Assembly (NCBI GenBank): GCA_944391215.1
Contig: CALXSR010000041.1
Span: 1-32,741, forward strand
Source: an uncultured Clostridia bacterium
Lineage (GTDB): Bacteria; Bacillota; Dehalobacteriia; UBA4068; CALXSR01
DNA: 32,741 nt
Reading direction: 5' to 3'
A program made the translations under genes and the position numbers. Of the stretch, positions 504 through 21,442 are shown piece after piece. How positions within the stretch are numbered: position 1 is the stretch's first letter; every line of letters begins with the position of its first letter. The notes under the pieces were generated by a model that saw only the letters and a list, made by a program, of their open reading frames with translations, was not told the DNA's origin and did not search any database.

Positions 504-3023
504 ATGAATCTTTCTTTTTCTACCCGCGGCTGGAACGATTTATCATGGGCAGAACAACTTGAAACGGCGCAGCTTATGCATTTTGGCGGTGTGGAACTCC
601 ATAATCTACACCAGCAAAGCGCACTCACTGAACGCGGCGGCGCCTTCCATAAATATAATATTATGGCAACTGCACGCGAACTACGCGAAAAAAAATTACA
701 TGTACCCTGCCTTGATACCTCATGCGATCTTGCCACAGATGACTGTACAAATGTGCTTGCTACGCTTATGGCGATCGCACATGATATCGGCTGCCCCTAT
801 GTCAGCGCGCAGGTCATGCACGATGACGAACAGGCAGTCTATGACCGTCTTCATATTCTTCTTCCCATTGCAGAAAAAAATCAAGTTACGCTGCTCATTA
901 AGACCAAGGGTATTTACGCCGACACCGAACGGCTGCGCGCCGTGCTCAATAACTTTGCCAGCGACCAACTTGGCGCGCTTTGGAATGCACACCGCACCTA
1001 TCGTGACCGCGGTGAAACGGCAGATACTACAATTAAAAACCTCGGCGCTTATGTCTGCCATGTCCATTTATGTGATTCGGACGATAATGGCAGTTATAAT
1101 ATCATCGGTGAAGGAACGCTTCCTGTAGATGAAGTCATGCGGGCTTTATCTTCGGTAGACTATGACGGTTTTCTCTCTCTTGTATGGATGCCGGAATGGA
1201 TGCCCGACCTTGATGACCGCGATGTTATTTTCCCACACTTTGTCAACTATATGAACCGCTTTGAAAATCCTCGCGGCAAAAGAAAGGCGCTGTATGACAA
1301 TCACGACCACAGCGGCAAATTCATCTGGAAAAAGGATGAGCTGATCTCTGAAACATTCCCGCAAGTACTCGACCGCATAGTTGAAGAATTCCCAGATCAG
1401 TATTGCTTCAAATATACAACACTCGACTATACGCGTACCTATGAGGAGTTTCGCAACGACGTTGATACTTTCGCCCGGGCGCTTATCTCGCTAGGCGTTA
1501 AGCGCGGCAGTAAGGTTGCCATTTGGGCAACAAATGTGCCGGCCTGGTTCATCACCTTCTGGGCAACTACCAAACTGGGCGCCATCCTGGTAACAGTAAA
1601 TACTGCCTATAAGATTCATGAAGCGGAGTATCTGCTACGCCAGTCCGATACCCACACACTGGTAATGATTGACCACTGCCTGGACTCTGACTATCGCAGT
1701 ATTATCAATGAATTATGCCCTGAACTGGCCCAGACCAAGGCCGGCGAGCCGCTGCATTGCAAGAAGCTCCCGTTTTTGCGCAATGTCATCACTGTCGACT
1801 TCCGACAAAAAGGTAGCCTAACCTTTGATGAAGCAATGGAGCGGGCCGAGATGGTACCAGCCGGTGAACTGGCGCGCATGGCAGCGCAAACACGACCGGG
1901 CGACGTATGCAATATGCAGTATACCTCCGGTACAACGGGCTTTCCTAAGGGCGTTATGCTAACGCACTATAATATTGTTAACAATGGCAAATGCATCGGC
2001 GACCGTATGGATCTTTCCACTGCTGACCGCATGATGATCCAGGTTCCAATGTTCCACTGCTTCGGCATGGTATTGAGCATGACCGCAGCGATGACGCATG
2101 GCGCAACGATGTGCCCAATGCCATACTTTTCCGCAAAATCATCGCTGGCTTGTGTTCATCAAGAAAAAATTACCTGTTTTAATGGCGTGCCTACCATGTT
2201 CATCGCTATGTTTAATCACCCTGATTACAAAGCGACTGATTTTTCTCATATGCGCACCGGCATCATGGCCGGCTCCGGTTGTCCGCCGGAGCTGATGAAG
2301 CGGGCGGCACAACCGGACGAAATGAACATGACCGGTATTGTTTCCGTTTATGGACAGACCGAGACTGCACCTGGTAATACGATGTCTGCCTGGGATGATC
2401 CACTCGACATCCGTACGGAAACGGTAGGCTACGCCTTCCCGCATGTGCAGTGCAAGGTTGTCGATCCGGAAACAGGCGAAGAGGTCCCCAACGGCGTTAA
2501 CGGTGAATTCTGCGCCCGTGGCTATAACACCATGAAGGGTTATTACAAAATGCCCGGCGCCACCTATGAAACCATTGATGCGGACGGCTGGCTTCATTCC
2601 GGCGACCTGGCTTGTCGAGATGAACACGGCAATTACCGCATCACCGGTCGATTGAAAGATATGATTATCCGTGGCGGTGAAAATATTTATCCCAAAGAAA
2701 TTGAAGAATTTATTTATACCCATCCCGCTGTGCGCGACGTACAAGTCATTGGTGTACCCGACAAAAAATACGGCGAAGAAGCAATGGCATGTATCATCCT
2801 CAAGGACGATACAAACTGCACCGTTGAGGAAATGAAAGACTATATCCAAAGTCACATGGCACGACATAAAGTGCCCAAATATATCGAATTTGTCGATGCG
2901 TTTCCCATGAACGCCGCCGGTAAAATTCAAAAGTATAAAATGCGGGAAGCTGCTATCGAGCGTCTTGGTTTGGCCAACGCTGCCGGCATCGATACCGCGA
3001 AAGGAGCAAAGCAAAATGAGTAA
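504..3023 (+). CDS. Fusion: xylose-isomerase-like TIM barrel + AMP-forming acyl-CoA ligase
   Basis: An 839-residue protein starting at ATG 504 behind AAAGGAG. Residues 1 to about 255 resemble the sugar phosphate isomerase/epimerase (AP endonuclease 2) TIM barrel: GGVELHN, then HVHLCDSD and GEGTLPVDE. Residues about 275-820 are an AMP-forming acyl-CoA synthetase: phosphate loop YTSGTTGFPKGV from Y473, YGQTE, a GWLHSGDLACRDEHG hinge region and the C-terminal AGKIQK with the catalytic lysine at K807. The ligase half should activate a carboxylic acid with ATP and CoA in the cytoplasm. The barrel looks catalytically damaged: positions where the family normally carries metal ligands read K133, N161 and V227, while the His of HVHL (186/188) remains. 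The last 8 bases overlap nifJ, implying translational coupling. The acid substrate is unknown; medium-chain fatty or branched/aromatic acids are possible. Confidence 0.9.
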   Translation: MNLSFSTRGWNDLSWAEQLETAQLMHFGGVELHNLHQQSALTERGGAFHKYNIMATARELREKKLHVPCLDTSCDLATDDCTNVLATLMAIAHDIGCPYVSAQVMHDDEQAVYDRLHILLPIAEKNQVTLLIKTKGIYADTERLRAVLNNFASDQLGALWNAHRTYRDRGETADTTIKNLGAYVCHVHLCDSDDNGSYNIIGEGTLPVDEVMRALSSVDYDGFLSLVWMPEWMPDLDDRDVIFPHFVNYMNRFENPRGKRKALYDNHDHSGKFIWKKDELISETFPQVLDRIVEEFPDQYCFKYTTLDYTRTYEEFRNDVDTFARALISLGVKRGSKVAIWATNVPAWFITFWATTKLGAILVTVNTAYKIHEAEYLLRQSDTHTLVMIDHCLDSDYRSIINELCPELAQTKAGEPLHCKKLPFLRNVITVDFRQKGSLTFDEAMERAEMVPAGELARMAAQTRPGDVCNMQYTSGTTGFPKGVMLTHYNIVNNGKCIGDRMDLSTADRMMIQVPMFHCFGMVLSMTAAMTHGATMCPMPYFSAKSSLACVHQEKITCFNGVPTMFIAMFNHPDYKATDFSHMRTGIMAGSGCPPELMKRAAQPDEMNMTGIVSVYGQTETAPGNTMSAWDDPLDIRTETVGYAFPHVQCKVVDPETGEEVPNGVNGEFCARGYNTMKGYYKMPGATYETIDADGWLHSGDLACRDEHGNYRITGRLKDMIIRGGENIYPKEIEEFIYTHPAVRDVQVIGVPDKKYGEEAMACIILKDDTNCTVEEMKDYIQSHMARHKVPKYIEFVDAFPMNAAGKIQKYKMREAAIERLGLANAAGIDTAKGAKQNE

Positions 3024-8516: not shown

Positions 8517-9290
8517 TTATTCTATTTCAACCTTATGAAAGGCCATGATAAAATCTGCAACATGGCTGGCTACCGCTGCTAACATCTCTTTTCCCCATTC
8601 GGCAGTAGCGGTATGCGGATGATCGTTTCCGCTCCAACCATTGGGCACCATTTTTCGATAATTGCGCGGCACAAGAAATTTAACCCCTTTATATTCTATT
8701 TTATTCATGCCGACATAAGGCATATTTTCTGCTAGTTTATGCCGGATCAAAGGTTGACAGGATTCCATATGCACCCAATTAGGATTGATCCCCATTACGG
8801 CCGCTGTTTCTACCCCGCTGGCATGTCCGCCATTTGGCCATTTTTCATTGATATCGCCAACACAATCCCACCAATCCACAATAGCCGCCAAAGCGCCTTT
8901 GGTATCCAAATCAACGGCAACTTCAGTTAAAACAGAGGTATTCCCGGCATGCCCATTCAAAAAGATAAATTTACGCACCCCGTAAGCAAATAAATCTTCG
9001 CATAATTTATTCATTACTTTTTTTAGAAGATCCGTTCCTAACGACATGGTTCCAGGAAAACCTCTATGATAATCAGCAACGCCATAAGGAATATGCGGCG
9101 CAATTAAAAGCTCCATTTTGCCTTGTAGATTTTCCTCAATCAAATCCGTCAAACGTGCCGGCACAATATTATCAGTCCCCATCGCTAAATGCTGCCCATG
9201 GTTCTCCACACTGCCAACAGAAATCATAACCATATCATTTTTTTTAAAATACGCCTCTGCCTGCACCCAGGTAATTTGTTCTAATCGCAT
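8517..9290 (-). CDS. Creatininase-family amidohydrolase
   Basis: A 257-residue protein of the creatininase / creatinine amidohydrolase family, metal-dependent cytoplasmic enzymes that open cyclic amides. The metal-site motifs are clear: GSVENHGQHLAMGTD (E29, H31, H34, D40), FLNGHAGN (H114) and GGHASGVETA (E161). Start ATG 9290 has AAAGGAGG just upstream on the minus strand. The family also includes members acting on other lactams, formamides and peptide-like cofactors, so creatinine is not proven. It sits between its own strong terminator and the divergent dinB control region, so it is probably monocistronic. The deaminase-like amidohydrolases at 16868-21442 could act on related small nitrogen compounds, which is inference only. 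Confidence 0.88.
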   Translation of the reverse strand: MRLEQITWVQAEAYFKKNDMVMISVGSVENHGQHLAMGTDNIVPARLTDLIEENLQGKMELLIAPHIPYGVADYHRGFPGTMSLGTDLLKKVMNKLCEDLFAYGVRKFIFLNGHAGNTSVLTEVAVDLDTKGALAAIVDWWDCVGDINEKWPNGGHASGVETAAVMGINPNWVHMESCQPLIRHKLAENMPYVGMNKIEYKGVKFLVPRNYRKMVPNGWSGNDHPHTATAEWGKEMLAAVASHVADFIMAFHKVEIE

Positions 9291-12249: not shown

Positions 12250-14513
12250 ATGATTCATCAATTTGAAAATAAAAATACAAAGATTTTGCTTATTGGTTTA
12301 TTGCTTATGGCCATCATAGCCGCTTATTTATGCACGTCCTATATTAGTATGCTTAAAAAGGCCGCCGAAGAGCAAGCAAATCATTATTTAACGGAAGTAG
12401 CTTCCCATGTTTCTTCTACCATCAACTCTCGAGTGGAAACCAATTTTAAGGACTTTTCCTCCATTGCCGAAACCTATCAATGATTTGCCAATCCGTAAGA
12501 CGCCTTTCATTTCTTAAGTCTAAAAGCAGAATCTCTAGGTTTTTTGCGTTTGGTTATTATGGATAAAAATGGTATAAACCATACTTCCGATGGTTATGAA
12601 GTAGATATTTCCGACGATCCTTTTATTCAAAAACCACTCAACGGAAAAAACGCTATATCGGGTATTACGTTTTCCCTGGTCAATGGGGAAGAATGTATTG
12701 TATACGGAGTAGCATATTACGATAAAAAAGGAGCTATTATAGGGGCGTTGGTAGCACCTCAAACCAAAGATCATTTAAGATAGGTATAAAATGTAGAAAC
12801 ATTTAATGACGAAGGTTTTCTCAAATTTTAGATTATAATGGAAATTTTGTAATGTACAGCAATAATAAAAATGCGCCTTCCCATCCTATCAACTTTTTTG
12901 ATATGATAAAAAATAGTGGACAAGTTGTAAACGGTTATTCTTTAGAGCAGTTAAAACAAGATATTCAAAATAAACAAACCTATATTTTTTGTTTCCATTT
13001 ATCAGGCGGTACGGAAAGGCTTATGGTTTACACGCCCTTGTAACCAGAAAATTGGGATCTATTCTCTATCATGCCAACTAAAGTTACGCATACCAATATG
13101 GATTTATTTATAAAAAGTACCATTGTGATTAACAGCGCTATTTTTCTTCTTTTCTTATTTTTAATAGCGCTTATTATTTTTATGTATCATCAGAATCGAA
13201 AGAAATTAGAAGAGCTAACTTTTGTCGATCCCGTTACCAATGGTATGAATCGAATTCATTTTGAAATGGGAGCGTTGCAGCTTTTGCAAAATGTTCCCAC
13301 CAAAAGTTATGCTTTAGTTTCCTTAGACATCCAAAAATTCAAATTGATCAATGATACTTTTGGCAGCGAAGCAGGAAATCAGACTTTAAAATATATTCAC
13401 GACATTTTGCAAGCACATTTGCAAGACGGGGAATTATCTGCCCGCATTACAGCAGATAATTTTAATATTTTGATCAGGACCATGCCGCAAAAGCAAATTG
13501 TTGCCCGCACCGAAAATATTATGAAAGAAATCAATTCCTATAATGATCATTTAGCGCAAAAATATTTTTTAACGGCTTCGGTTGGGATTTATATCGTAGA
13601 TGAGCCAAATTTAAATTTTATCGCCATACAAGATAGAGCAACCGTAGCCAGAAAGAATGTGACACATACTTATGCCGACCATTTCAGTTATTGTCAATTT
13701 TACAGCAATTTAGAAAGAATGCGTTTAATTCGCGAAAAATAAATTGATAACAGAATGGAAGAAGCGTTAAGAAACCATGAATTTACCGTATATTTGCAAC
13801 CAAAATATGAATTGCAACAGCATAAAATTGCCGGAGCAGAATCTCTGGTACGCTGATTATATCCGCAAAAAGATATGATTCCCCCTCCCATGAATTTATT
13901 CCAACTTTTGAAAAAATGGCTTTATTTTACAGTTAAACTTATATGTTTTTGAAGAAGTTTGTAAAATATTCATAACTGGATTGCAAAAGGGTTGGCACCG
14001 ATTCCAATTTCTGTTAATCTTTCTTATGTTCACTTAAGGAATCAAAATTTTTTAGAATCCTTTTATCAGATCGTAAAAAAATACCAGGTTCCTCCGCATT
14101 TATTGGAAATTGAATTAACGGAAACACTGGTATTTGAAAACTTAGACGTTTTATTACCCATTATTGATAAAATACATAAACTTGGTTTTATGCGCGCTTT
14201 AGATGACTTTGGTAGCGGTTATTCTTCTTTAAATACTTTAAAAGATATTAATGTAGACATTTTAAAATTAGACCGCGCTTTTTTCAATAGTTATCAAAAT
14301 CAGCATAGTTTGCGCAGCGAATATGTCATACAAAGCATTGTGGAATTAGCACAAAAATAAAAATTACAAACGAAAACGGTTGCCGAAGGCGTGGAAGATA
14401 TGGCGCAAGTAGAATTTCTTCGCAGTATTCATTGCGATATGGTACATGGTTTTGTGTTTGCCAAACAAATGCCCATTGCAGATTTTGAAACGAGCGCTTT
14501 TATACAAAAATAA
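12250..14513 (+). pseudogene. Membrane GGDEF-EAL (cyclic-di-GMP) protein, heavily decayed
   Basis: Reassembled over several frames this was one protein: N-terminal membrane helix (ILLIGLLLMAIIAAYLCTSY), extracytoplasmic sensor domain, second membrane helix (from about 13110), GGDEF domain and EAL domain. The GGDEF signature is degenerate (ARITADNFNIL). The EAL side keeps its motifs: YLQPKYE, GAESLVR, ELTET, LDDFGSGYSSL, LKLDR, TVAEGVE, so it probably once degraded cyclic-di-GMP. Lesions seen: in-frame TGA 12481 and TAA 12496; a stop at 12781 and a frameshift near 12830 (a T4 run where T5 would join FLKF-LDYNGN); TAA 13041; TAA 13740; TGA 13854; shifts about 13890-13975; TAA 14358. The ribosome binding site AAGGAG at 12222 suits a GTG at 12239 that is itself out of frame. 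Not expected to make a functional product. Confidence 0.85.
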
Positions 14514-14618: not shown

Positions 14619-15518
14619 TTATATTTTACTTTGTAATAATGAAATTAAACACTGCGCGGCTTGCGGCAAATAACGGTCATTACGATAAATGGCTGCGATC
14701 GATCTTTGAGCCGGTATATTCTTTAAGGTATAAAAACGAGTACTCTTTCCATCCGTACCGTTTTTCACAAACTGTTCCGTCAAAAAAGTAATCCCCACCC
14801 CTACTCTTGTCATAGCATAGGCTGTTTCCATACTACGGCATTCCATCGTAACTTGTGGAACAAAGCCACTTTGCGCACAAAGACTATCCGCCATTTTCCG
14901 TAATAGCTGATCCTCATTTAATAAAATAAATGGTTCTTTTCTAAAAAGGGATAAATCAATCGGCGGATATTCCTCCGTACTAATCGGCAAATTCATCGTA
15001 TGTTCTTTCGGTAAAGCCAGTAAAATTCTTTCAACCCCTAATAAAATACTGGTAAAGCGAACCTGTCCCAAATGCGAAACACTAATCAGCAAATCAATAT
15101 CACCAGATTCTAATAGTTGATCTAATTCACTCGTAGGTTTTTCAATCAAAATAATATTGCAATTAGGACAAAGCCTTTGAAATTCCGGCATCACCAATGG
15201 TAACAAATAAGTGCTACGAGTTGGCGCAATTCCCACCACCAAACGGGTTAAACGATTAGCGCTAATATCCGCAATTTGTTGCAATACGCTATCCTCACTA
15301 TCTAAAACTCGTTTAGCCCATTTTACATAGAGCTCTCCGGCATGCGTTAAGGTAAGAGGGTAGCTACTACGATCAAATATTGGTGTATTCAGCTGTTTTT
15401 CTAAATTTTTAATACTTTGACTTAAGGATGGTTGAGAAACATAAAGCTTTTTTGCTGCTTTAGAAAAACTTCCTTCCTCTGCAATCGCTACCACATATCG
15501 CAATAAATGATTGTTCAT
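14619..15518 (-). CDS. LysR-family transcriptional regulator
   Basis: A 299-residue LysR regulator. The N-terminal winged helix-turn-helix is typical (EEGSFSKAAKKLYVSQPSLS, about 14-33, then SIKNLEKQLNTPIFDR), and residues about 90-295 form the periplasmic-binding-protein-like effector domain (LVVGIAPTRSTYLLP). Start ATG 15518 has GAGGTGAT upstream. It is divergent from the AbrB-family membrane protein and shares an AT-rich gap of about 200 bp with it, the usual arrangement for a LysR regulator and its target. No unambiguous T-N11-A operator could be picked. The ligand is unknown. Confidence 0.93.
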   Translation of the reverse strand: MNNHLLRYVVAIAEEGSFSKAAKKLYVSQPSLSQSIKNLEKQLNTPIFDRSSYPLTLTHAGELYVKWAKRVLDSEDSVLQQIADISANRLTRLVVGIAPTRSTYLLPLVMPEFQRLCPNCNIILIEKPTSELDQLLESGDIDLLISVSHLGQVRFTSILLGVERILLALPKEHTMNLPISTEEYPPIDLSLFRKEPFILLNEDQLLRKMADSLCAQSGFVPQVTMECRSMETAYAMTRVGVGITFLTEQFVKNGTDGKSTRFYTLKNIPAQRSIAAIYRNDRYLPQAAQCLISLLQSKI

Positions 15519-15664
15519 CCGATCACCTCACCTATATTATACCATAATAAGCTGATATTATAATAAAAAACTATAGAAACTATCATATTATTAGTATTTT
15601 ACTTTATAAATATCCTCCCTCATAATAGAAACAGAACCGATACTCAATCATAATAATGTAGCTT

Positions 15665-15715
15665 GATTCAGGGAGGACGCCACCACCTCCCTGAATCTAT
15701 ATACTTTAAGGAGGT
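15665..15715 (+). promoter_or_regulatory. Leader hairpin and alternative helix over the ribosome binding site
   Basis: A perfect 12-bp stem (15665-15676 with 15686-15697, GATTCAGGGAGG against its complement, 9-nt loop) lies 10 nt before the ribosome binding site AAGGAGG (15708-15714) of the AbrB-family gene. The right arm contains ACCTCC (15685-15690), which can pair instead with GGAGGT (15710-15715) and hide the ribosome binding site. The two helices exclude each other. There is no T tract, so it is not a terminator. No known riboswitch class is recognised. Confidence 0.5.
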
Positions 15716-15722
15716 TTTTTTC

Positions 15723-16799
15723 ACGTTACAGCTATTTTTTACTTTAGCCATCGGACTTTGTTGTGGCTATCTTTTTTTTCGTCTTAAAGTACCTGGCGGT
15801 ATGATGGTCGGCGCTTTGGTGGGTGTTGCAGCTTTTCAAATTCTTACTTCTCAAGCTTATATGCCAACCTATGCCAAAGTATTTGCCCAAATTGTAGCCG
15901 GCGCTTTTATCGCCAGTACCATAGAAAAAAGAGATATTTTACATTTTCAGCATATCATGAAACCGACTTGTATTGTGGTAAGCGGTATGTTAATATTAAA
16001 TATTCTTATGGGTATTATAATTCATTATACCGGACATTTGGATTTATTGACTTCTTTTTTTTGCGCAGTACCAGGCGGCATGGCCGATACCCCCATTATT
16101 GCTGCCGATGTGGGAGCCAACGGCGGGCAAGTAGCTGTTTTGCAATTTGCCAGAATGGTTTTCGGTATTGGCATCATGCCATCGCTCATTTTAAAATTCA
16201 GTAGGCAAAAACAAAAAGCAACCATATCCTCTGCGATAGCGATAGAGGAAGAAATCCTAGAAAAACACAATTCTTCTATGGCGATGCAAACTTCTCATAA
16301 AAATAATACCAACTTTGCCATTACCGTTATTGTAGCAATGCTAAGCGGTATATTGGGCCGGATACTAGGTGTTCCAGTTGGCGCTTTGCTTTTCTCCCTG
16401 CTTGGCGTTATCCTCTTCAACTTCTTTTTTAACCGCGCTTATTTGCCTATTTGGGTAAAAAGGGTAGCGCAAGTCCTATCCGGTGCTTATATTGGCAGTT
16501 CTTTCGGAATACAAGATATTTACGCTTTAAAAAAGCTTATTTTACCGATGATTTTATTATTAGCAGGATATGGGATTGCCTGTTTTGTAATTGGGCATTT
16601 ATTACATAAAACCTGCCATATGGATTTAAAAGAAGCCTACCTTTGCGCTACCCCAGCCGGGGCGAGTGATATTGCCCTAATCGCTTCCGATTTGGGCGTA
16701 CAAAGCACAGATTTGGCTGCCCTGCAAATTATACGCATGCTAACAGCGGTAACTGTTTTTCCTTTGATTATTCTGTTCCTAATTCATCATATCTATTAA
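15723..16799 (+). CDS. AbrB-family membrane protein (putative transporter), non-AUG start
   Basis: About 358 residues, almost entirely hydrophobic, with the internal two-fold repeat of the AbrB/YvrL-type membrane family (formerly called ammonia monooxygenase-like): LPVPGGMMVG-like LKVPGGMMVGALVG and IVAGAFIASTIEKRDI in the first half, VPVGALLFSLLGV and VLSGAYIGSSFGIQDI in the second, with FFCAVPGGMADTPIIAADVG and LCATPAGASDIALIASDLG as matching later motifs. About ten membrane helices. Transport substrate unknown. No ATG, GTG or TTG follows AAGGAGG (15708-15714) at useful distance; the in-frame codon 8 nt behind it is ACG at 15723, giving (M)LQLFFTLAIG. The only upstream in-frame start is TTG 15663, which would translate through the hairpin and has no ribosome binding site. 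Either ACG is used or the start codon is mutated. Confidence 0.85.
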   Translation, partial: TLQLFFTLAIGLCCGYLFFRLKVPGGMMVGALVGVAAFQILTSQAYMPTYAKVFAQIVAGAFIASTIEKRDILHFQHIMKPTCIVVSGMLILNILMGIIIHYTGHLDLLTSFFCAVPGGMADTPIIAADVGANGGQVAVLQFARMVFGIGIMPSLILKFSRQKQKATISSAIAIEEEILEKHNSSMAMQTSHKNNTNFAITVIVAMLSGILGRILGVPVGALLFSLLGVILFNFFFNRAYLPIWVKRVAQVLSGAYIGSSFGIQDIYALKKLILPMILLLAGYGIACFVIGHLLHKTCHMDLKEAYLCATPAGASDIALIASDLGVQSTDLAALQIIRMLTAVTVFPLIILFLIHHIY

Positions 16800-16806
16800 A
16801 TAAAAT

Positions 16807-16838
16807 AAAAAAGAGCACTTGTCAAAAGCGCTCTTTTT
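16807..16838. terminator. Bidirectional terminator between convergent genes
   Basis: A 9-bp A/T-flanked stem AAAAAGAGC/GCTCTTTTT with a 13-nt loop lies between the AbrB-family gene and the last amidohydrolase gene. T-rich tails occur on both strands, so it can end both transcripts. Confidence 0.85.
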
Positions 16839-16867
16839 CTTACCATTTTTCCATTACGGCTTACGAA

Positions 16868-18292
16868 TTATAGTTTGCCTTCTCTCATATAACGAGCATT
16901 CGGGCCATTTACTTCTAAGAATTCTTTTTCCGCAGCGACACCTAATTTTTCCGCTTCGCGTTGGGCATCATCAATCAATTTGCCCACATCGAAGGTAACC
17001 GGTTTTTTATCTTTTACTAAGAATTTACCTTGTACCATAACGGTATCCACTTCACGCCCTTGACCAGCATATACGAAATTCGGAATAAAAGTACGCATCG
17101 GAACTGTCATAACTGGGGTCAAATTCGGATAACGGGTATCTACCAAAATAATATCGGCATCTTTCCCTACTTCCAAAGAACCAGTTACATTATCAATACC
17201 CAAAGCTTGGGCACCTTCAATAGTAGCCATCCGCAAAGCTTCCCAGCAAGGCATAATAACCGCATTTCTATATTGAGATTTTACGGCAAGACAAGTCATA
17301 TTCATTTCACGAATGATATTATGCGCATTGTTCCCAGCCGCTTGGTCAGAACCCAAACCAACTTTACCACCAGCATCTTTAAATGCTTTTCCGGGCGGGA
17401 TAACACCATTGGTTATCATAATAGAAGTTGGGCAAAATACCATATTTGCGCCACGCGCTACAACCGTTTTCACTTCTTCTGGTTCTGCGGTAGAAAGGTG
17501 AATACCAATAAAGTCTTTATCGATATAACCAACTTTATCCAACCATGGAATCGCCCGCATGCCATATCTTCTCATCATTTGATCGGTTTCCCGGTCGCTT
17601 TGTTGTAAATGCATATGAATTTTAGAATGTCTTTCTTTGGCGATATCGCGCACTTTCAACATTAATTCCTGGCTTAAGAAGTCGCAACCTTGAGGGCTAA
17701 AACGAATCCGCATCCGGCCATTATCTTTGCCATCGTATTTATTAAACATAGCTAAAGCGTCATTTAAAGTTCTTTCGCCCATTGCCGGGTCAAAATCGTA
17801 AATTTGGCCAGGTTTATAAAGTTTATAAGCAGCTTCTCTAATACGTACACTAACATTTGCACGCGCGCCTACTTCATCAATGAAAGCGATTGCACCTTCC
17901 ATGTCCATACCATCGTCACCAATGGTAGTGGTACCATTCATAATCGCTTCGGCAATACCAAGTCTGCTACCAATGGTTTTTTGTTCGCTGGTCCTGGTTC
18001 TTTCAAAAGGAGCCATCCCTTCATTCATCCAGTTACCAATATCCTGCGCTACGCCACGCAATACCGCATGACCGGTATGCATATGACCGTCAATTAAACC
18101 GGGTAATACTACTTTGTGATCGGCGCCAATTACTTCATCCGCAGTATATTTGCTTTCAATATCAGCACGAGGAGCAATTGCTGCAATTTTACCATCTTTT
18201 ACAGCAATAGAATGGTTTTCCAAATACCCAACTCCATCGCCCTGCATGGTGTACATATGCTTGGCGTTAATGATCAAATCCACTTTTGTCAT
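16868..18292 (-). CDS. TRZ/ATZ-type amidohydrolase, copy 1 (divergent paralogue)
   Basis: A 474-residue cytoplasmic amidohydrolase of the deaminase/chlorohydrolase type (S-adenosylhomocysteine deaminase, guanine deaminase, AtzA relatives). Metal-site motifs: GLIDGHMHTGHAVLRG (HxH), HMHLQQ, GIHLS and GLGSDQAAGNN (Asp). At the position of the usual catalytic Glu (HLxE) it has Gln (HLQQ), and the substrate-site motif usually reading H-C/N-P-x-S-N is FCPTSI. Start: ATG 18298 is only 2 bp behind AAGGGGGAA, whereas ATG 18292 is well spaced and gives MTKVDLII, matching the starts of both paralogues. It is the most divergent of three tandem copies. No clear terminator separates it from the copy upstream, so they may share a transcript. 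Substrate unknown; the active-site changes argue against a standard adenosine or guanine deaminase. Confidence 0.88.
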   Translation of the reverse strand: MTKVDLIINAKHMYTMQGDGVGYLENHSIAVKDGKIAAIAPRADIESKYTADEVIGADHKVVLPGLIDGHMHTGHAVLRGVAQDIGNWMNEGMAPFERTRTSEQKTIGSRLGIAEAIMNGTTTIGDDGMDMEGAIAFIDEVGARANVSVRIREAAYKLYKPGQIYDFDPAMGERTLNDALAMFNKYDGKDNGRMRIRFSPQGCDFLSQELMLKVRDIAKERHSKIHMHLQQSDRETDQMMRRYGMRAIPWLDKVGYIDKDFIGIHLSTAEPEEVKTVVARGANMVFCPTSIMITNGVIPPGKAFKDAGGKVGLGSDQAAGNNAHNIIREMNMTCLAVKSQYRNAVIMPCWEALRMATIEGAQALGIDNVTGSLEVGKDADIILVDTRYPNLTPVMTVPMRTFIPNFVYAGQGREVDTVMVQGKFLVKDKKPVTFDVGKLIDDAQREAEKLGVAAEKEFLEVNGPNARYMREGKL

Positions 18293-18445
18293 TTCCATTT
18301 CCCCCTTAGTTTTTATTTCCTTAACGGATCACTACATTTAATAATAATACAAAATTTACTTTTTTTCAATAATATACTCCTATACAATCCATACGTTTTT
18401 CCTATTCACTATGCTTTCGTCATTGTAAAAAAGTATAACGATACA

Positions 18446-19870
18446 TTATAATTGATTTTTTTTCATCATTTGTGCATTCATACCATTGATTTCCCAGAAT
18501 TTCGGCGCTACTTTTTCCCCTATTTCATTGGCATATTTTTGCACATCTCTTCTGAGTTCCTGATAATCAAAGGTTAACGGTTTTCTGTTTTCCATCAATA
18601 GTTTGCCATTTACCATAACTGTATCTACAATACTACCAGGCGCTGCATAGACCAAATTAGGGATAAAATTACGCATTGGTTCTGTATAAACAGGATTCAT
18701 CGAAGGATCTTCTAAATTGATAAAAATAATATCTGCTGTTTTTCCAACTGTAATCGAACCAGTAATATCGTCAATTCCCAAAGCTTTGGCGCCTTCAATG
18801 GTAGCCATACGCAAGGATTCCCAAGCTGGTTGATCAACGCCATTCCCTTTTTTAATTTTACCAAATAAGGAACAAAGTTTCATTTCGTTAATCATATTGT
18901 GACAGTTATTGCCAGCCGATTGGTCGGAACCCAAACCAACATTGCCGCCTAATTGGCGCATTTCAGAGCCAGGCGCAATGATGCCCAAAATCAAACCAAT
19001 AGAACCGGGGCAATAAACAGCGGAAACACCGCGTTTCACTAAAAGCTCCAATTCTTCCGTAGTAGATTCTGTTAAATGAATACCAATTAAATAGTTATCT
19101 AAATAATCAATAGAATCTAAAAAGGGAATACTGCGCAATCCGTAGCGCATGGTCATTTGTTCCATTTCCCGAGAATCCTGTTGTAAATGCATATGAATTT
19201 TCGTATCTAATTTTATAGCCATTTCCTTAATTTTGGCCAAAGATTCCGGACTTACAAAATCACAACCTTGCGGACCAAAACGAATACGGATGCGATCATT
19301 TTTTTTATTATGATACTTTTCATATAAATCCATGAATTCAGCAATATTTTTCTCCGCTAATTCTTGTTTATAATCATAAACTTCCCCGTCCAAATATCTT
19401 CTGTTTACAGCATCGCGAATACGAACGCTAATATTTCCTCTGGCGCCAATTTTATCGATAAATTCTACACAAGGCGCTAAATCATTACCATCGTCGCCAA
19501 TGGTAGTAGTACCATTCATTACAGCTTCCGCGACAGCCAAACGAGAGCCCGCCGCCTTAGCATCATAACTACGTACCGCATCTAAAGGAGCAATTGCATC
19601 CATCATCCATTTATCAATATCTTGAGCCAAACCTCTTAAAACAGCATGACAGGTATGCATATGGGCATCAATAAAACCGGGTAACACAAGATGATCCGTC
19701 GCATCAATAACTTTTTCTGCAGTATACTCTTTGGCGACTTCCTCTTTTGGCGCAATCGCAACAATTTTACCATTTTCTATGGCAATATCGTAATTATAAC
19801 AATAGCCAACGCCTTCTCCCTGCATGGTATACATATGCTTTGTTTGTACAATCGTATCAACTTTTCTCAA
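18446..19870 (-). CDS. TRZ/ATZ-type amidohydrolase, copy 2
   Basis: A 474-residue paralogue, very similar along its whole length to the copy at 20018. Motifs: GFIDAHMHTCHAVLRGLAQD, HMHLQQDSRE, GIHLTES, VYCPGSIG and GLGSDQSAGNN. As in the others, the expected catalytic Glu of HLxE is Gln. It differs from copy 3 at DAHMH (DGHMH in copy 3). The start is TTG 19870 (MRKVDTIVQTKH) with AAAGGAGG nine bases upstream; no ATG fits. A terminator of copy 3 lies in the gap before it (19967-19995), so it probably has its own promoter within the AT-rich 19871-19965 stretch. Role presumed like its neighbours: hydrolysis of a small ring or amino group on a nitrogen compound. Confidence 0.88.
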   Translation of the reverse strand: MRKVDTIVQTKHMYTMQGEGVGYCYNYDIAIENGKIVAIAPKEEVAKEYTAEKVIDATDHLVLPGFIDAHMHTCHAVLRGLAQDIDKWMMDAIAPLDAVRSYDAKAAGSRLAVAEAVMNGTTTIGDDGNDLAPCVEFIDKIGARGNISVRIRDAVNRRYLDGEVYDYKQELAEKNIAEFMDLYEKYHNKKNDRIRIRFGPQGCDFVSPESLAKIKEMAIKLDTKIHMHLQQDSREMEQMTMRYGLRSIPFLDSIDYLDNYLIGIHLTESTTEELELLVKRGVSAVYCPGSIGLILGIIAPGSEMRQLGGNVGLGSDQSAGNNCHNMINEMKLCSLFGKIKKGNGVDQPAWESLRMATIEGAKALGIDDITGSITVGKTADIIFINLEDPSMNPVYTEPMRNFIPNLVYAAPGSIVDTVMVNGKLLMENRKPLTFDYQELRRDVQKYANEIGEKVAPKFWEINGMNAQMMKKNQL

Positions 19871-19966
19871 GATAAATACCTCCTTTATTTTTGTTATCGA
19901 TAAAATACTATTACTTATAATTATATTACGATATCCATCATAATATAAATGATTTTATTTTGCAAT

Positions 19967-19995
19967 AAAAAAGGACGCTATGAAATAGCGTCCTT
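19967..19995 (-). terminator. Terminator after amidohydrolase copy 3
   Basis: An 11-bp perfect stem (AAGGACGCTAT 19971-19981, loop GAA, ATAGCGTCCTT 19985-19995) is followed on the minus strand by six T. It ends the transcript of copy 3 and separates it from copy 2. Confidence 0.88.
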
Positions 19996-20017
19996 AAAAA
20001 CAAGTCGATTACCAAAA

Positions 20018-21442
20018 TTATAGTTGACCTTTTTCCATCATAACGGCATTGGCCCCATGGATTTCATTAAATTGCGGCGTACCTTTTACAGCAATTTCAT
20101 CCGCATATTTTTGAGCTTCCTCTACCACTTCTTCTAAATTGAAGGTTAACGGTTTTCTGTTTTCCATTACCAAATTACCAGCAGCAATGACGGTATCCAC
20201 AATACTACCTTGCGCAGCATATACTAAGTTCGGGATGAAGTTTCTCATCGGTTGCGTATAAATAGGACGCATTGCTGGGTCGTTCAAGTTAACAAGGATA
20301 ATATCCGCAGATTTGCCAGCTTCAATGGACCCAGTTAAATGATCGATACCCAAGGCTTTGGCCCCTTCAATGGTAGCCATACGCAAGGATTCCCAAGCCG
20401 GTTGATCTACCCCGTTACCATTTTTAATTTTGCCAAACAAAGAGCACAATTTCATTTCATTGATAATATTATGGCAGTTGTTACCAGCCGATTGGTCGGA
20501 ACCCAAAGCAACATTACCACCCAGTTGACGATATTCCGAACCGGGAGCAATAATACCATCAATAATACCAATAGAACCAGGGCAGTAAACTGCATTCACA
20601 TGATATTTAGCCAAAAGTTGTAATTCTTCGGTAGAAGAGTCCGTTAAATGGATCCCTACCAATCTGTCGTCCAAATAGCCAATCGATTCTAGGAAACGAG
20701 CGCCGCGCATGCCATAACGCATCATCATTTGTTTTGCTTCCCGAGAGCCTTGTTGCAAGTGCATATGGATTTTGGTGTCCAATTCTTCTGCTTTTTGCCG
20801 TAATTCTAATAAAGATTCCTTACTGCAGAAATCCGGACCTTGCGGGCCAAAACGAATTTTAATCCGTTCATTGTCTTTATTATTATATTTTTGATAAAGG
20901 TCCATAAATTCAACCATATTTTTATCGGCCAATTCTTTTTTGTATTCATATAGTTCCCCTGGCAAATATCTTCTATTAACAGCATCGCGAATACGAACGC
21001 TAATATTCCCTCTTACACCAATTTTATCAATAAAGGCGCAAACCGGTTCCACATCATTGCCATCATCGCCAATGGTAGTGGTGCCATTCATAACCGCTTC
21101 CGCAATCGCCATACGGGAACCAGCCGCTTTGGCATCATAACTACGTACAGCATCAAAAGGAGCGATACCATCCATCATCCAATATTCTAAATCTTGGGCC
21201 AAACCTCTTAAAACAGCATGACAGGTATGCATATGGCCATCGATGAAACCAGGCAGAACCAATTTATCGGTCGCATCAATTACTTTTTCTGCAGTATATT
21301 CTTTGGCAACTTCTTCTTTTGGAGCAACTGCTTTAATTCTACCGCCGTCTACTACAATTGCTTGATCTTCTCTATAACCAACGCCATCGCCTTCTAAGGT
21401 ATACATATGTTTGGTATTGATAATCATATCTACTTTATTCAT
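20018..21442 (-). CDS. TRZ/ATZ-type amidohydrolase, copy 3
   Basis: A 474-residue amidohydrolase. Metal ligands by family pattern: H70 and H72 (DGHMHTCH), H228 (IHMHLQQ), H265 (GIHLT) and D316 (ALGSDQSAGNN). Q231 stands three residues after H228, where the deaminase subfamily has the catalytic Glu. VYCPGSIG replaces the usual H-x-P-x-S-N substrate motif. Start ATG 21442 has AGGGAGGAAA upstream. The symporter gene ends about 200 bp upstream on the same strand with no terminator seen between, so the two may be co-transcribed and the symporter could bring in the substrate. It is closest to copy 2 and looks like a fairly recent duplication of it. Product and substrate not identified. Confidence 0.88.
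   Translation of the reverse strand: MNKVDMIINTKHMYTLEGDGVGYREDQAIVVDGGRIKAVAPKEEVAKEYTAEKVIDATDKLVLPGFIDGHMHTCHAVLRGLAQDLEYWMMDGIAPFDAVRSYDAKAAGSRMAIAEAVMNGTTTIGDDGNDVEPVCAFIDKIGVRGNISVRIRDAVNRRYLPGELYEYKKELADKNMVEFMDLYQKYNNKDNERIKIRFGPQGPDFCSKESLLELRQKAEELDTKIHMHLQQGSREAKQMMMRYGMRGARFLESIGYLDDRLVGIHLTDSSTEELQLLAKYHVNAVYCPGSIGIIDGIIAPGSEYRQLGGNVALGSDQSAGNNCHNIINEMKLCSLFGKIKNGNGVDQPAWESLRMATIEGAKALGIDHLTGSIEAGKSADIILVNLNDPAMRPIYTQPMRNFIPNLVYAAQGSIVDTVIAAGNLVMENRKPLTFNLEEVVEEAQKYADEIAVKGTPQFNEIHGANAVMMEKGQL

Follow-up and report, generated by a model that had tools for sequence, protein, structure and literature searches.

The window, i.e. the whole analysed stretch of 32,741 nucleotides from an uncultured Clostridia bacterium, carries three tandem genes (here W1, W2 and W3) for COG0402-type amidohydrolases, which match the Pfam family Amidohydro_1 at 1e-42 to 1e-47. 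Proteins of this kind, with a glutamine at the position of the catalytic glutamate, are termed Q-type below and glutamate-bearing proteins E-type. The genes and the features around them are the following:

14619..15518, minus strand: LysR-type regulator, by its proximity a possible regulator of the locus
15663..16799, plus strand: AbrB-type membrane protein (PF05145), likewise by its proximity a possible transporter
16807..16839, minus strand: terminator-like hairpin after W1
16868..18298, minus strand: W1, Q-type amidohydrolase, 476 aa, 51% identity to W3
18446..19870, minus strand: W2, Q-type amidohydrolase, 474 aa, 74% identity to W3
19920..19949, minus strand: promoter-like site before W2 (TTTATA-18-TATAAT), a consensus match only
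19971..19995, minus strand: terminator-like hairpin between W3 and W2, an 11-bp stem followed by a T-run
20018..21442, minus strand: W3, Q-type amidohydrolase, 474 aa
21641..23057, minus strand: AGCS sodium:alanine/glycine symporter upstream of W3, in two overlapping ORFs

Since a hairpin and a promoter-like site lie between W3 and W2, the copies are probably transcribed separately. An Rfam search of the window returned no element. The AGCS reading frame is interrupted at about 22750, close to a T run, by a frameshift that could stem from misassembly or mark a true pseudogene. A recent tandem duplication including the spacers was considered and rejected, as the two 147-bp spacers are dissimilar. 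No hydantoinase or carbamoylase gene adjoins W1-W3 in the window. A creatininase-family protein (PF02633, 189 bits) is encoded at 8517-9290 on the minus strand; because it reaches 84 bits against the creatininase equivalog cut-off of 235 bits and no creatininase-family gene was found beside the other Q-type loci tested, it is not counted in support of any reading below. Elsewhere in the window, a GGDEF-domain ORF and, after it, a short distinct EAL ORF (13071-14360, plus strand) possibly form one interrupted GGDEF-EAL gene, and an 839-aa ORF (504-3023, plus strand) upstream of a pyruvate:ferredoxin oxidoreductase ORF joins an N-terminal AP_endonuc_2/xylose isomerase-like domain to an AMP-binding domain.

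An earlier note on this DNA had stated that all three copies keep the metal ligands of the family, and the alignment does place the HxH motif, the beta-5 and beta-6 histidines and the beta-8 aspartate in each of them (in W3, the key residues are H70/H72, Q201, D204, H228, Q231, H265 and D316). The replacement of the catalytic glutamate by glutamine, which the same note had pointed out, is found in 3/3 copies as HMHLQQ. The second glutamine of this motif (Gln231 of W3, codon 20750-20752) occupies the position of Glu203 in TM0936, as assigned by alignment to solved MTA/SAH deaminases and by the PDB numbering of TM0936, transferred via a deaminase of the own genome. Two further exchanges had been overlooked. 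Gln201 of W3 (codon 20840-20842) stands in place of His173 of TM0936, and Asp204 in place of Tyr176. Both glutamines and Asp204 are invariant in the 43 sequences of the Q clade described below (43/43 each).

Comparison with 68 Glu-bearing proteins, a set selected for Glu and in which the Glu column is therefore fixed by construction, revealed a clade-specific pattern of invariant residues near the active site, namely Q201 (mostly H in the comparison set), D204 (mostly Y) and I291 (N), and further Q317 (G) and G320 (S). The proposed exchange of HxPxSN for (F/Y)CPxSI also holds beyond the window, since Ile291 is present in 43/43 clade members and Asn in 67/68 Glu-bearing proteins. The resulting fingerprint, PQGxD, HxxQ, SI and (S/T)DQ, falls into one clade. 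Acidic residues at positions 268 and 295, which the note had not mentioned either, are near-invariant (41/43 clade members each). As W1 has Thr and Asn at the positions equivalent to D268 and D295, and W2 has Leu in place of D295, the three enzymes may differ in specificity.

A scan of a genome collection yielded 32 relatives with 46-52% identity, nearly all of full length, from scattered Firmicutes (Tissierellia, Oscillospiraceae, Geosporobacter, Erysipelotrichaceae and others). Profile searches detected carriers in 14/399 genomes of the phylum and in 3/391 genomes of one class, and 0/60 sampled relatives had a Q-type gene at 1e-60. A wider search of the class added two members, both of a sister subfamily (HVAQGDREI), which is counted with the core in the 43 clade sequences. 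One Q-type copy, at locus L053, is broken by a frameshift.

In a quick tree of 122 sequences without bootstrap, 70 of them with Glu and with L092 and L105 excluded as wrong ORFs, all 43 Q-type sequences form one clade with an SH-aLRT value of 100 and a long stem. This is the family tree that had been proposed as a check, and together with a recurring gene context that is unlike that of E-type loci it bears out the assumption of a distinct subfamily. W1-W3 share a sub-branch with L072, in which W2 and W3 are the younger pair. The argument that the same change in divergent paralogues amounts to independent evidence has to be given up, however: W1-W3 descend from one Q-type ancestor and are not independent cases, because the Gln change was inherited once. 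The copies are clearly under purifying selection. The dN/dS ratio is about 0.14 for W2/W3 and 0.24 and 0.23 for the other pairs, rough values since dS (1.3-1.8) is near saturation, and agrees with the view that the subfamily was kept and amplified.

The AlphaFold model of W3, computed with the family alignment (pLDDT 92, pTM 0.93), is a predicted TIM barrel with a flanking beta domain like those of 4dyk and AtzA (TMq 0.86), and Foldseek ranks MTA deaminases and AtzA highest (TMq 0.84-0.86). With Amidohydro_1, HxH, the beta-5/beta-6 His and the beta-8 Asp, W1-W3 have the features of the mononuclear ATZ/TRZ-type enzymes of COG0402, and they are to be placed in a separate clade with a putative one-metal site (HxH-His-His-Asp), related to the MTA/SAH-deaminase/AtzA branch. 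The MTA/SAH deaminases (TM0936; 1p1m, 4dyk, 4gbd, 4f0r) share the TIM barrel (TMq 0.78-0.86, 24-29% identity), the HxH-His-His-Asp ligands and the Trp75 position with the Q clade. They differ from it in gene context and in Glu203, His173, Tyr176 and SN, which are Gln, Gln, Asp and SI in the Q clade; HxxE with Glu203, His173 and HxPxSN are thus absent from 43/43 clade members. No member of the clade was found among solved structures. None of the NCBIfam cut-offs is reached, the MTA/SAH equivalog NF012037 scoring 143-150 of 779 bits and the best curated deaminase match 274 of 540 bits.

It is unlikely that W1-W3 are ordinary COG0402 deaminases for an unsampled amino-heterocycle in which another residue replaces Glu203. 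The predicted fold and the metal ligands are those of deaminases, and Asp204, present in 43/43 clade members and absent from Glu-bearing proteins, could fill the acid role of Glu203; the earlier note had named a different Glu in that role as refuting its view. However, no curated deaminase cut-off is even approached, the gene context is unlike that of E-type loci, and Glu203 is strongly conserved, even in distant relatives: in an unbiased sample (usable proteins of 101 genomes, profile NF006549), the position is Glu in 66/68 and Gln in 2/68 proteins. Against this background, Gln231 in 43/43 clade members is not due to chance.

AtzA (4v1x) and TrzN (3ls9; E241Q variant 3lsb) also share the fold at about 21-27% identity. 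Position 241 of TrzN, which we take to be the site equivalent to Glu203, is Glu in the natural enzyme, whereas it is Gln in all members of the Q clade. E241Q crystal structures of TrzN are in the Foldseek list, and a Glu-to-Gln exchange is commonly made to trap an enzyme in inactive form. That W1-W3 are catalytically dead or regulatory paralogues which lost their Glu is nevertheless extremely improbable, given the metal ligands invariant throughout the clade, the low dN/dS and the recurrent placement among catabolic genes.

To examine this placement, the genes up to 5 kb away from 44 Q-type and 38 E-type loci were compared, with phmmer seeds taken from Q-type neighbourhoods and from the LysR and AbrB proteins of the window. 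M20 enzymes of any type occur at 19/44 Q-type and 0/38 E-type loci (p 7e-7) and, after collapsing at 75% identity, at 9/20 versus 0/38 loci (p 2e-5); as the families were chosen post hoc, these and the following p-values are descriptive. AGCS or NhaC transporters are found at 7/20 collapsed Q-type loci versus 1/38 (p 0.002). Hydantoinase alone was discarded as a context marker, because its enrichment is lost on collapsing relatives (4/20 versus 2/38, p 0.17, not significant) whereas that of M20 is kept. Three kinds of M20 enzymes recur (carbamoylase, RocB-like and M20D), so that a single inherited operon would not explain their enrichment.

Some Q-type loci additionally carry genes for hydantoinase/allantoinase, racemase, D-aminopeptidase and AGCS/NhaC transporters. 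Seven loci (L033, 38, 41, 42, 44, 54, 55) have the operon M20 carbamoylase, PF01177 racemase, D-hydantoinase, NhaC antiporter and Q-type enzyme. The closest relative, L072 (55% identity to W3), is flanked by an M20 enzyme above the cut-off of the allantoate-amidohydrolase subfamily and, at 16 bp, by a hydantoinase above the allantoinase cut-off. Elsewhere, the own genome encodes an M20 carbamoylase and a hydantoinase that resembles allantoinases and, with 356 bits, falls just short of their cut-off of 358. AGCS adjoins four other Q-type loci (L032, L073, L079, L191). The neighbourhoods are heterogeneous, with D-aminopeptidases, prolyl peptidases, tryptophanase or sometimes no tested family.

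Parts of this context would fit a peptidase or amidase that acts, together with DmpA, DppA, RocB-like or M20D enzymes, on D-amino-acid or N-acyl amino-acid derivatives and not on hydantoins: S58 is found at L026/L027, M55 at L075/L077/L078, M20D at L027/L031/L034/L045/L191 and AGCS at five loci. Against this reading, which we regard as distinctly unlikely, stand the surroundings of L072 and the operons with hydantoinase, racemase and carbamoylase found in some of the core clade.

The same operons already hold a separate ring-opening enzyme, and the prior step is therefore free. It could be taken by a deiminase that makes hydantoins by stripping an exocyclic imino or amino group from a compound resembling creatinine or from a 2-iminohydantoin, with Asp204 or Asp268 as the acid, and feeds the neighbouring hydantoinase. 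Acids newly conserved at positions 204, 268 and 295 would go well with a cationic amidine. Core members of the clade occur in Tissierellia, and in Tissierella creatinophila a cytosine-deaminase-like gene and a D-hydantoinase are part of a proposed creatinine route (PMC5364220). However, W1 lacks D268 and D295, and the Tissierellia loci were found without a hydantoinase within 5 kb. Literature on creatinine and ergothioneine routes gave no decisive match, and the ergothioneine ErtD/ErtE models score under their cut-offs. Taken together, a deiminase appears rather unlikely.

Our preferred reading, held tentatively and with a little less than even confidence, is that W1-W3 are active metallohydrolases and no purine or SAH deaminases, with a cyclic ureide or amide of an amino acid as substrate, and that they act upstream of an M20 carbamoylase/amidase. 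Their activity is supported by the conserved ligands and the constraint on the copies. The substrate is probably other than the usual purine-like ones, since Q-type relatives often adjoin enzymes that free amino acids from hydantoins or amides. D-hydantoinases and allantoinases (TIGR02033, TIGR03178) belong to the amidohydrolase superfamily too and, judging by the neighbourhoods, probably share a pathway with the Q-type enzymes, but they are of a different subtype and encoded by separate neighbouring genes. The end of beta-4 in W3 reads Pro-Gln201-Gly and has no Lys, whereas the binuclear hydantoinases of subtype I have a carboxylated Lys there, and hydantoinase profiles are absent from the best 25 profile matches of W1-W3.

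In this branch of the superfamily, Glu203 shuttles a proton to the ring nitrogen during deamination, and the attacking water is the task of the beta-8 Asp. In the Q clade, Gln has replaced both this proton shuttle and the His that contacts purines, and Asp204 and usually two further acids have been gained. How the Q-type enzymes bind metal, move protons and react, and on which substrate, is inferred as follows. The beta-8 Asp (D316 in W3), together with the beta-6 His (H265), would activate the metal-bound water and protonate the leaving nitrogen. Rather than protonate a nitrogen of an aromatic ring, the side chains of both Gln residues would form hydrogen bonds to a carbonyl or amide group in the substrate. 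Such an exchange, with Asp and ligands kept, would suit an enzyme that hydrolyses amides, imides or ureides, a reaction in which no ring nitrogen has to be protonated and a hydrogen-bond donor to the carbonyl would be useful. Judging by the neighbouring genes, the enzymes probably act on a cyclic ureide of the hydantoin, allantoin, dihydropyrimidine or iminohydantoin class or on another amide derivative of an amino acid, and the product would be handed to the M20 carbamoylase/amidase, which frees the amino acid. It is conceivable, with rather low confidence, that this represents an undescribed activity, in which the double Gln and Asp204 made a deaminase pocket that of a ureide/amide hydrolase and the three copies diverge in substrate range. 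A search of the literature on HxxE/Gln, TrzN E241 and hydantoinase operons found nothing usable.

The Gln change itself is real and family-wide, and a reaction or substrate differing from that of the deaminases is plausible. Deaminase names are often spread over the superfamily by similarity, and the fixed loss of the catalytic Glu throughout the clade means that such a name is probably wrong for the Q-type group. If the link to hydantoins and M20 enzymes is true, these proteins would contribute a further step to how anaerobic Firmicutes, Oscillospiraceae among them, break down ureides derived from amino acids, and the clade would be a natural counterpart of the TrzN variants in which E was changed to Q.

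HxxQ is found outside the Q clade as well, and the clade is thus a variant within known amidohydrolases. Within the own genome, the motif recurs in six more amidohydrolases (L011, L012, L016, L018), and two sampled proteins from other genomes (L118, L127) have it too. These resemble the Q clade in the Gln at the Glu203 position and differ from it in the surrounding residues. As they sit on separate branches of the tree, HxxQ is present in more than one lineage. The own genome is rich in amidohydrolases (15 Amidohydro_1 matches in 1.79 Mb). Its other HxxQ enzymes are located on contigs C23, C17, C49 and C6 (L012, L011, L016 and L018, respectively), and the tandem pair on C23 adjoins a PF01177 racemase and a DcuC-type transporter.
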